A stretch of 37,005 nucleotides of DNA, taken from IMG/VR virus record IMGVR_UViG_3300020420_000037, positions 1 to 37,005 of that record. One strand, 5' to 3'. Within the stretch, counting starts at the first letter, position 1. Every line of letters begins with the position of its first letter. The position numbers were made by a program, and so were the translations under genes. Below are positions 11,943 to 37,005 of this stretch, piece by piece. Origin of the DNA: a virus. The notes below the pieces were generated by a model, which was given only the letters and a program-made list of their open reading frames with translations, was not told where the DNA came from and made no database searches.

Positions 11943-12005
11943 GGTATAGTTCTAGCTTTAGCTAGTGGGTAAGGGTGGGTATAGAATCAATTGGTATAGG
12001 TATAA
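11943..12005 (+). repeat. Left group of GGTATAG arm-type repeats
   Basis: GGTATAG at 11943-11949, 11978-11984 and 11993-11999, plus a near copy GGTATAA at 11999-12005. They lie upstream of the attP core on one side. Short repeated heptamers flanking a core are the usual form of integrase arm-binding sites. Function is inferred from location and density. Confidence 0.5.
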
Positions 12006-12071: not shown

Positions 12072-12078
12072 CTATACC
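12072..12078 (-). repeat. GGTATAG repeat, leftward copy near attP
   Basis: CTATACC on the plus strand, the inverted form of the heptamer repeated at 11943-11999. A similar CATACCA follows at 12084-12090. It lies about 60 bases from the tRNA-like core. Confidence 0.4.
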
Positions 12079-12137: not shown

Positions 12138-12178
12138 TGATTACAAATCAATTGCTCTACCAGCTGAGCTACAAGGGC
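12138..12178 (-). other. attP core: 5' half of tRNA-Thr(TGT)
   Basis: Read on the minus strand, these 41 bases are a canonical tRNA 5' half: acceptor strand GCCCTTG, TA, D-stem GCTC and GAGC with loop AGCTGGTA, A, anticodon strand ATTGA, loop TTTGTAA (anticodon TGT, Thr) and the first three bases of the 3' anticodon strand, TCA. After this the sequence no longer pairs and leaves the tRNA. No T-arm or 3' acceptor strand is present. A partial tRNA next to an integrase gene is a standard sign of the phage attachment site. This one carries the 5' part of the gene, where most elements carry the 3' part. Confidence 0.8.
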
Positions 12179-12190
12179 AGACTGAAAAAG

Positions 12191-12219
12191 CTTATATATA
12201 TAGCCGAATTGAATCGCAA
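12191..12219 (-). promoter_or_regulatory. Minus-strand promoter reading into the attP tRNA half
   Basis: On the minus strand, TTGCGA (12214-12219), a 17-base spacer and TATAAG (12191-12196) form a sigma70-type promoter. The tRNA 5' end lies 12 bases after the -10, so transcription would start about five bases before it. After integration the phage lies upstream of the rebuilt tRNA-Thr gene and this promoter could drive it. Predicted from sequence only. Confidence 0.5.
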
Positions 12220-12241
12220 GATTCTTTTCGGCCTTTTTTTT
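12203..12241 (+). terminator. Intrinsic terminator, rightward
   Basis: GCCGAA (12203-12208) pairs with TTCGGC (12227-12232), then a TT/TT internal loop, then GAATC (12211-12215) with GATTC (12220-12224) around a GCAA tetraloop. It is followed by C and eight T (12234-12241). A strong rho-independent terminator that would stop late-gene transcription before the integrase operon and shield that operon in the prophage. Confidence 0.8.
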
Positions 12242-12272: not shown

Positions 12273-12304
12273 CTATACCTATTCTATACCCAAGCTGCCT
12301 ATAC
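12273..12304 (-). repeat. Right group of GGTATAG arm-type repeats
   Basis: CTATACC at 12273-12279 and 12284-12290, spaced 11 bases (about one helical turn), with a shifted CCTATAC at 12298-12304. Together with the left group they flank the tRNA-like core and are the best candidates for integrase arm sites. One rightward copy at 12380-12386 lies in the spacer of the integrase operator. Confidence 0.5.
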
Positions 12305-12363: not shown

Positions 12364-12392
12364 TTGCAACATTGTTATAGGTATAGTATAAC
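12364..12392 (+). promoter_or_regulatory. Integrase operon promoter
   Basis: TTGCAA (12364-12369), 17-base spacer, TATAAC (12387-12392). The same two hexamers with the same spacing occur before the metalloprotease gene at 18642-18670. Expected start about 12399, giving a short leader with AGGAGAGAG before ATG 12423. The -10 is inside the right arm of the operator 12373-12393. Confidence 0.6.
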
Positions 12393-12422: not shown

Positions 12423-12758
12423 ATGAAAAATAAATGGTTCTACTATCCAAGCTTTTTATCAAAGCAAGGATTATTGTTTAAAGCTGCTAAAGAAATTATG
12501 TTTAGAGGTTCTAAATATTCTTATCCTAGAAAAGCTTTTGTAAAAGTAAATTTATTTAAACAAAATGCTTTCACTAAAATTCCGAAATCTATGGGTGGTG
12601 GTAAACAAACTCATGGTTCAGATTTTGGTTCATGGGGTATTGTCAATCATCTTATTGAAGAAGATAATCCAGGAATTTACATTTATTATAGAAGTCTAGC
12701 TAATTCTATAATTTCTAAAAAAAATAAATTTAAACAATTAAGATTGGAGTTAAAGTAA
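12423..12758 (+). CDS. Unknown protein before integrase (possible directionality factor or accessory)
   Basis: 111 residues, AGGAGAGAG upstream, and its stop overlaps the integrase start (TAATGG). Basic and aromatic-rich (MKNKWFYYPSFLSKQ, KYSYPRKAFVKVNLFKQNAF), with a Gly-rich stretch SMGGGKQTHGSDFGSWG. No HTH or membrane segment is obvious. Being first gene of an operator-controlled operon with int suggests an accessory such as an excisionase, but no such family is recognised. Confidence 0.55.
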   Translation: MKNKWFYYPSFLSKQGLLFKAAKEIMFRGSKYSYPRKAFVKVNLFKQNAFTKIPKSMGGGKQTHGSDFGSWGIVNHLIEEDNPGIYIYYRSLANSIISKKNKFKQLRLELK

Positions 12759-14431: not shown

Positions 14432-14836
14432 TTAATGACACTTACTTTTTGTATTGATCCCAAACTCATTATTAGAGGGAGCTATTGGGTTATTATTTGG
14501 AGAAGTGTCTTGCCCTAATAATTCTGTCAAATTTATATCTTCAAGAAAATAAGTAATTGGTTTTCGAAAAAAAGCTGCAATGATTAATAATTTAGGTAAG
14601 CTACAACCATTACCACCTTTTTCATATTTTTGGATTTGTTGGAACGTTACACCTAAACATCTTGCTAATCTTGATTGTGTAACTAATTTTTTTACTGGTT
14701 TATAAGTTCCTTTAAATTCTCCATCAACAATTTCTTTAACATAAGCAAAATGATTTAATCTACAATGCTTTATTTTTTTTCCTACAGCTTTTGCAATCTC
14801 AACTTCATAATCTGTTTTTGATTTACTCAGTGCCAT
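14432..14836 (-). CDS. XRE-family HTH transcription regulator
   Basis: 134 residues. The helix-turn-helix is clear at about 53-75: TQSRLARCLGVTFQQIQKYEKG, followed by LPKLLIIAAFFRKPITYFLED, the usual XRE continuation. No protease domain, so it resembles Cro or a short repressor. GGAGAGAAAG lies before the ATG. A palindrome (14861-14876) lies in its upstream gap and may be its own operator. It is the last gene before the leftward terminator. Confidence 0.8.
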   Translation of the reverse strand: MALSKSKTDYEVEIAKAVGKKIKHCRLNHFAYVKEIVDGEFKGTYKPVKKLVTQSRLARCLGVTFQQIQKYEKGGNGCSLPKLLIIAAFFRKPITYFLEDINLTELLGQDTSPNNNPIAPSNNEFGINTKSKCH

Positions 14837-36100: not shown

Positions 36101-36967
36101 ATGTCTAAATCAAGGACTCTTGGAAACATTGTATCTGGAAGTGGATCAACTTTAGATGGAGCTGTAGTTGTAAAAGGTGATGGCTCATCTACAGATGGAG
36201 CTATTAGATTAAATTGTTCTCAAAATTCACATTATGTAGAATTAAAATCACCAGCTCATGCAAGTTATGCAGGAAACATTTCATTTACTTTACCTACTAA
36301 CACAGGTACGAATGGACAATCTTTGATTACAAATGGTTCTGGTGTTTTAAGTTTTGCAGATGTTTCAGAAACTAAACCAACAGTATCAAATGTATCTCAA
36401 ACAATTGCACCTGCAACAGCAACCACTATAAGCATTACAGGAACAAATTTTGTTTCAATACCACAAGTTGATTTTGTGAACGGATCAACAGGAGCTATCA
36501 CAGTTGCCAACACAATATCATTTACAAATGCTACAACGCTTTCTGTCAATGTAACTTTAGCAGCTGGTAACTATTATGTAAGAGTTGAGAATCCTAATGG
36601 TTTAGCTGGAAGATCTACAAATAATATTATTACTGCATCTACAGCTCCAAGTTTTTCTACAAACGCAGGATCACTAGGAACAATTGCAGGAAATTTTTCA
36701 GGCACAGTTGCAACGATTGCAGGATCATCAGATAGTGCTATCACTTTTTCTGAAACAACAAATGTTTTAACAAACGCATCACAGGCAAACTGTACTCTAA
36801 ATAGCTCAACAGGAGTTATTACAACATCAGATTTTGGCGGTTCATCAACTACCCCACAACTTTACAATTTTACAATACGAATAACAGACCAAGAGGGTCA
36901 AACTGCGGACAGATCGTTTAGTTTACAATCTAGCTTCGGTGCAACAGGTGGAGGACAATTTAACTAA
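36101..36967 (+). CDS. Tail adhesin with Ig/IPT-like domains
   Basis: 288 residues, AAAGGATAATCAAATA before ATG. N-terminal fibre-like part (HYVELKSPAHASYAGNISFT, LPTNTGTNGQSLITNGSGVL), then an IPT/TIG-like domain at about 88-180 (KPTVSNVSQTIAPATATTIS, LAAGNYYVRVENPNGLAG), then an Ig-like domain to the end (STGVITTSDFGGSSTTPQLY, ITDQEGQTADRSFSLQSSFG). Its end repeats at the left end of the contig with strain-type differences. Confidence 0.7.
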   Translation: MSKSRTLGNIVSGSGSTLDGAVVVKGDGSSTDGAIRLNCSQNSHYVELKSPAHASYAGNISFTLPTNTGTNGQSLITNGSGVLSFADVSETKPTVSNVSQTIAPATATTISITGTNFVSIPQVDFVNGSTGAITVANTISFTNATTLSVNVTLAAGNYYVRVENPNGLAGRSTNNIITASTAPSFSTNAGSLGTIAGNFSGTVATIAGSSDSAITFSETTNVLTNASQANCTLNSSTGVITTSDFGGSSTTPQLYNFTIRITDQEGQTADRSFSLQSSFGATGGGQFN

Positions 36968-37005
36968 TGGCTAATACAAGATTAACAAGAACACCAAGTT
37001 CAGCA
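36929..37005. repeat. 77-bp direct terminal repeat, right copy
   Basis: Same as 192-268, covering the stop of the Ig-like adhesin and the first codons of the next gene. Upstream of it the two ends differ by many substitutions over about 190 bases. Confidence 0.85.
36967..37005 (+). CDS. LamG/SPRY adhesin, first 13 codons (cut by contig end)
   Basis: Repeats the start of the gene at 230-1573 (MANTRLTRTPSSA), beginning in the TAATG overlap after the upstream gene. It shows that the gene order continues from the right end into the left end of the window. Confidence 0.75.
   Translation, partial: MANTRLTRTPSSA

Follow-up and report, generated by a model that had tools for sequence, protein, structure and literature searches.

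A candidate pelagiphage attachment site made of the 5′ half of SAR11 tRNA-Thr(TGT), with a putative promoter and terminator cassette

Overview

Next to its tyrosine integrase gene, the viral DNA analysed here (the window: the whole 37,005-nt stretch of the IMG/VR record IMGVR_UViG_3300020420_000037) contains the front half of a SAR11 tRNA-Thr(TGT) gene. We consider it likely that this is the attP of a temperate pelagiphage, at which integration would rebuild the host tRNA-Thr behind phage DNA and a phage cassette would act as both promoter and terminator. The target is the front of an apparently single-copy, essential tRNA gene, so that integration would be survivable only if the element brings a working promoter. 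This requirement appears to be readable in sequence: the cassette survives a change of target from tRNA-Thr to tRNA-Asn, and the rebuilt host genes now rely on upstream DNA of foreign origin. Prophages are seldom observed in SAR11, which would thereby gain a mapped integration hot spot, and with it a test bed for phage takeover of the transcription of an essential host RNA.

In the proposed mechanism, the integrase encoded from position 12758 would recombine the 41-bp tRNA-Thr(TGT) 5′ half with the host tRNA-Thr downstream of rlmB. Strand exchange would probably occur in the symmetrical anticodon stem-loop (ATTGA TTTGTAA TCAAT), a crossover position that agrees with the anticodon class recognised among tRNA att sites (Islander, PMC4383910). 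At one end of the integrated element, the native host promoter would be left with a useless displaced 5′ half; at the other, phage DNA would precede a rebuilt, complete tRNA. The cassette that separates core and int would then have two functions: minus-strand TTGCGA-N17-TATAAG would transcribe the rebuilt tRNA, and an overlapping hairpin followed by T8 would stop plus-strand transcription before int. We infer that this exact phage integrates in this manner.

The probable attP core and its setting

The core (GCCCTTGTAGCTCAGCTGGTAGAGCAATTGATTTGTAATCA) is read on the minus strand from 12178 to 12138 and corresponds to positions 1–41 of tRNA-Thr(TGT), that is, the acceptor 5′ strand, the D arm, the anticodon stem-loop with TGT and three bases of the 3′ anticodon strand. 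The initial annotation of this DNA had described a tRNA 5′ half with anticodon TGT ending three bases past the anticodon loop, and its coordinates hold to the base. No complete tRNA was found by ARAGORN in the 37-kb window. A host tRNA-Thr(TGT) sharing the 41 bases, which that annotation had proposed to seek in SAR11 genomes, was found there, with an identity block of 41/41. Scanning for the exact 41-mer returned 32 viral contigs of IMG/VR and at least 119 stretches of bacterial contigs, nearly all from Pelagibacteraceae among the matches listed. In the SAR11 stretches, ATAGGTCCGCGGTTCGAATCCGTGCGGGGGCA normally comes next and completes tRNA-Thr(TGT), the host 3′ half being ATAGGTCCGCGG. Of 399 host-genus genomes, 272 contain a degenerate form of the core, in nearly every case as a single copy. 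Chance is ruled out for the core, because the exact 41-mer both starts complete SAR11 tRNA-Thr(TGT) genes and recurs among these viral contigs. Two MAG contigs labelled Flavobacteriales/Flavobacteriaceae (L079 and L109) carry the SAR11 tRNA-Thr 5′ half together with a SAR11-type upstream region, and are probably mis-binned SAR11 DNA.

The core and its neighbourhood comprise the following features:

11943 to 11999, plus strand: three GGTATAG arm-like sites (11943, 11978 and 11993) left of the core, part of a repeat cluster
12072 to 12078, minus strand: fourth left GGTATAG arm-like site, same cluster
12138 to 12178, minus strand: very likely attP core, tRNA-Thr(TGT) 5′ half identical to the SAR11 attB; exact match to complete SAR11 tRNA-Thr genes, at which ARAGORN calls tRNA-Thr(tgt)
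12273 to 12290, minus strand: two right GGTATAG arm-like sites (12273 and 12284), same cluster
12380 to 12386, plus strand: third right GGTATAG arm-like site, same cluster
12423 to 12758, plus strand: 111-aa ORF directly 5′ of int, without family match; a small ORF lies at the same place in relatives L004 (5882–6241) and L032
12758 to 13906, plus strand: tyrosine integrase, 382 aa; PHROG 1 integrase (6.6e-32), PF14659 (SAM-like N domain) above cut-off, PF00589 weak; relatives adjoin tRNA 5′ halves
14432 to 14836, minus strand: HTH_3 repressor-like protein of the lysogeny module; PF01381 (2.4e-6)

GGTATAG occurs 13 times in the window against 2.5 expected, and its copies are clustered, with 7 in the 444 bp around the core (four to the left and three to the right) versus 6 across the rest of the 37 kb. 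It is also frequent around att in the related contigs L164, L157, L178, L007 and L194. The repeats resemble arm-type integrase sites, and we infer for them a role in integrase binding. Given the seven arm-like repeats flanking the core and the adjoining integrase gene, the 12138–12178 region is very likely attP. Residues R214, R322 and Y357 of the integrase are invariant in an alignment of 12 sequences. In this family, Y319 also replaces the histidine usual in HxxR and D347 the histidine usual in LGH, both invariant in 12/12 aligned sequences. The 111-aa ORF preceding int could possibly encode an excisionase or an att-linked regulator.

Terminase, SU10-type portal and SU10-type capsid place the phage near HTVC106P and HTVC010P, the nearest cultured relative being HTVC106P (terminase 61%, capsid 56%). 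On its gene content, the window is a predicted temperate HTVC010P/HTVC106P-like pelagiphage with related terminase, portal and capsid; HTVC106P is without an annotated integrase, whereas the window phage has a tyrosine integrase. This integrase had no match at 1e-5 among cultured phage records, and blastn of the att region against cultured phages returned ordinary phage-borne tRNAs. Positions 1–120 of the window resemble coding sequence near 36880–37005 (ORF 36101–36967), which suggests either that the genome is circularly permuted or that the two ends of the record nearly repeat each other.

Integrase relatives and target switch

Relatives of the integrase were collected at 40 to 92% identity. 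Every tRNA fragment recognised near one of them is a 5′ half, antisense to int and upstream of it; some of the contigs end too near int to tell, and about 20 with longer upstream DNA show no fragment recognisable to the search pattern. The tRNA-Thr(TGT) 5′ half is the commonest. In L214, L215, L217 and L232, the 5′ half derives instead from tRNA-Asn(GTT), with the same boundaries, and finds an exact match in 5 of the 8 SAR11 genomes tested; L232 retains the window's own TTGCGA...TATAAA block before its Asn half. Two other relatives, L004 (6731–6805) and L032 (5137–5211), have a complete tRNA-Thr(TGT) at attP, behind the same promoter-like block. The 3′ half of this tRNA is unlike that of SAR11 and is absent from all host loci fetched, so that integration of these phages would leave two complete tRNA genes.

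Such whole genes raise the alternative that the 41 nt in the window are the remnant of a phage-encoded translation tRNA-Thr rather than an attachment site, two relatives having the entire tRNA at this very place. We regard this as highly improbable: the fragment ends just past the anticodon loop and is identical to the host gene, the integrase and clustered repeats adjoin it, the switch to tRNA-Asn keeps the same boundaries, and the fetched host loci do not contain the 3′ half seen in L004 and L032.

A promoter-like block overlapping a terminator-like hairpin

On the minus strand upstream of the core, TTGCGA (12219–12214) is separated by a 17-nt spacer from TATAAG (12196–12191), which lies 12 nt from base 1 of the tRNA; these positions agree with those first annotated. 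The elements of the block are:

12191 to 12196, minus strand: −10-like TATAAG, 12 nt upstream of tRNA base 1; TATAA invariant at −18 to −14 in 18 distinct att regions
12203 to 12241, plus strand: intrinsic-terminator-like hairpin and T8 (stem 12203–12232, T8 12234–12241); fold −16.8 kcal/mol, z −3.75
12214 to 12219, minus strand: −35-like TTGCGA, 17 nt upstream of the −10; TTG--A invariant while the hairpin loop around it changes

Among att regions that share the window's hairpin type (18 distinct ones), TTG--A and TATAA, 17 nt apart, are invariant; most of these type-I upstream regions are closely similar, with an effective number of about 4. Across the changing loop, TTG--A takes the forms TTGCGA, TTGCAA and TTGAAA. 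Distinct phage upstream regions, whatever their type, have T at −1 (24/24), whereas positions −2 to −5 vary; neither TATAA nor the −1 T is part of the hairpin. The loop region contains the complement of the −35, and part of the conservation of the block is explained by the hairpin alone. With its strong plus-strand hairpin followed by T8, the block in addition resembles a terminator that would act on transcription crossing the core in the direction of int.

Generic sigma-70 scores for the window block were no better than chance (p = 0.046 with a different best pair, dinucleotide shuffles), and a promoter scan of the window listed none at TTGCGA-N17-TATAAG. Native SAR11 tRNA promoters were also no better than shuffles (p 0.15–0.73), which renders this scoring uninformative; conservation was therefore used as promoter evidence.

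It could be argued that attP is as described but that the upstream block serves only as a terminator, together with integrase-binding DNA, the rebuilt tRNA being expressed by read-through or from a cryptic promoter. The strong hairpin with its T8 tail, the hairpins of other sequence found at the same place in the L017 and L027 att types and the non-significant promoter scores would all accord with such a role. However, TATAA and the −1 T are invariant despite lying beyond the hairpin, TTG--A persists as the surrounding loop varies, and L004 and L032 retain a complete tRNA behind the block. Moreover, int in the window and the ORF adjoining a rebuilt SAR11 tRNA (L175, see below) run away from the tRNA, leaving read-through without an obvious source. 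We consider a terminator-only block distinctly unlikely. The initial annotation had the phage seemingly giving the tRNA a new promoter, a proposal supported by conservation, by the whole tRNA-Thr behind the same block in relatives and by a fossil junction in a host genome, but not by sigma-70 scoring. Taken together, this points to a phage that very probably brings its own promoter and so keeps the rebuilt tRNA gene working.

Rebuilt tRNA-Thr genes in SAR11

The native SAR11 gene order is rlmB, promoter and tRNA-Thr, and 94/94 native upstream regions contain the promoter motif TTGAT[AT], whose first base falls at −36 to −38 in cluster representatives. About one-fifth of the fetched SAR11 loci have foreign DNA upstream of a complete tRNA-Thr. 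At about 10 of these, the native promoter and a displaced 5′ half still stand beside rlmB, the displaced half being mutated in L040, L116, L137 and L052. This is the layout expected from the earlier proposal that integration rebuilds the complete tRNA behind phage DNA with loss of the host promoter. TTGAT[AT] is found in 21 of the 23 foreign upstream regions, and in 8 of 10 cluster representatives against a shuffle mean of 0.71 and maximum of 6. As read from the sequences of these loci, SAR11 tRNA-Thr is repeatedly rebuilt with foreign DNA upstream.

The SAR11 single-cell genome RIS_SAG_23 (L052/L175) has foreign DNA upstream of the sole intact tRNA-Thr(TGT) copy found, and another copy could lie in unassembled DNA. 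The upstream region in L052 aligns to the hairpin/promoter region of phage contigs L017 and L214 with a score of 32, versus 19 for the best of 200 shuffles. This suggests an attR-like fossil junction from which the phage genes are gone; for this phage family, no other locus comes nearer to a junction. RIS_SAG_23 has a second recombinase (G002 C39, L252), which was set aside; it sits on a separate contig and appears to belong to a different integrase type. L019 and L031, considered as phage–host tRNA junctions, were rejected as other tRNA-carrying contigs.

The initial annotation had also called for a search for prophage junctions, which yielded this one fossil with phage-family upstream DNA and no intact prophage. 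Integrase relatives were found in none of 399 host-genus or 387 family genomes (overlapping samples, many partial), the same search recovering 4/4 phage records as a positive control, and no viral contig was found in which the phage block is fused to a SAR11 tRNA 3′ half. These results bear on another scenario, in which the tRNA 5′ half is kept for recombination during lytic infection without stable lysogens, and promoter supply would rarely matter. The lack of an integrase prophage in the SAR11 genomes sampled accords with it, as do the T7-like cyanophages P-SSP7 and S-TIP37, which share this type of att: they insert at tRNA-Leu, as proved by PCR, with stable lysogens not found (PMC8776855), and the same could hold here. 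Conversely, the phage has an HTH repressor-like gene, its promoter-like motif is conserved, and the L052 fossil suggests that at least one such event was inherited. We view an exclusively lytic use of the site as somewhat unlikely, and favour integration by a temperate phage that supplies the promoter of the rebuilt tRNA.

Comparison with known systems

Front-half attP sites are known already from marine cyanophages, and such 5′-half sites have been recognised as a minority type. Zhao and Williams (2002, J Bacteriol 184:859) reportedly described an element, not a SAR11 phage, that supplies the 5′ part of its target tRNA. The usual integrating elements carry the 3′ end, as had been assumed at the outset: they make up 3,760 of 3,919 Islander islands, the remaining 159 being of the 5′-fragment kind (PMC4383910), and 5′-distal tRNA use is described as ‘considerably less frequent’ (PMC6563490). 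In the 5′-fragment islands the element supplies the target tRNA 5′ part, as here, but these are not SAR11 phages. In the T7-like cyanophages P-SSP7, P-SSP2/P-SSP3 and S-TIP37, attP is likewise the first half of a host tRNA, in their case tRNA-Leu, up to the anticodon loop, with a tyrosine integrase adjacent (PMC8776855). The P-SSP7 sequence contains GGGAGTGTGGCGGAATTGGTAGACGCGCCGGACTTAAAA, and TATAAT lies upstream of the tRNA half in both P-SSP7 and P-SSP2/3. These phages differ from the window in virus group and tRNA, and their att follows int in the same orientation, whereas that of the window precedes it and is antisense.

Essential host tRNA function is also kept after integration in the tRNA-dependent lysogeny of Fionnbharth and other actinobacteriophages, in which the phage supplies a promoter measured with a reporter (PMC10865867). 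In that system, however, a whole phage tRNA complements the host tRNA, which is not rebuilt, and the core is ~10 bp, whereas the window is without a complete tRNA and its 41-bp core would rebuild the host gene from both halves, which sets it apart from tRNA-dependent lysogeny. Among SAR11 phages, HTVC011P/Fonsiphage (HTVC019P group III) replace the disrupted host tRNA-Leu(TAG) by their own copy (PMC6811365), and HTVC011P has a full tRNA-Leu beside int. A complete tRNA is what L004 and L032 carry, whereas the window has a 5′ half and belongs to a different virus family.

The window, its relatives, the SAR11 islands described below and L052 all fit a predicted 5′-half (reversed) tRNA integrator, in which the element carries the 5′ half and the tRNA is rebuilt behind element DNA. 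As far as the literature shows, what looks new is that this pelagiphage family has a conserved, putative promoter/terminator cassette, that the cassette persists when the tRNA target changes, and that SAR11 contains promoter-swapped tRNA-Thr loci.

Integrase-less cargo islands at tRNA-Thr

Eight SAR11 islands of 2.5–6.3 kb lie at tRNA-Thr (L169, L171–L174 and L249–L251). They are bounded by tRNA-Thr 5′ halves and give the rebuilt tRNA a TTGATT promoter-like region. Their ends are conserved over ~118 bp on the left and ~145 bp on the right, both sharing a CACCGACnAGAAnCCGACAGATT-like motif, while their cargo is unrelated (ABC transporter and GDSL esterase, TctABC, type III restriction-modification-like genes, and a beta-barrel-like protein). 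No tyrosine recombinase was found inside the eight islands, and those found in the same genomes are located elsewhere and are XerC/D-sized. A helper phage was sought in viral contigs with the island type-B promoter, left end and right end, and none was found. We tentatively put forward, as quite possible though not probable, that SAR11 tRNA-Thr(TGT) is a promoter-swap hot spot common to temperate pelagiphages and to integrase-less islands, whose conserved ends would provide arm-like repeats and a replacement tRNA promoter and which a phage integrase would mobilise in trans. If this is true, the islands represent a new satellite-like cassette class in the most abundant marine bacteria. Two ORFs near the rebuilt tRNA (L170, 1477–2355; L173, 5863–6270) have a common signal-peptide-like start, MKKLLGIVVL, and then differ, a pattern suggestive of cargo exchange downstream of a shared leader.
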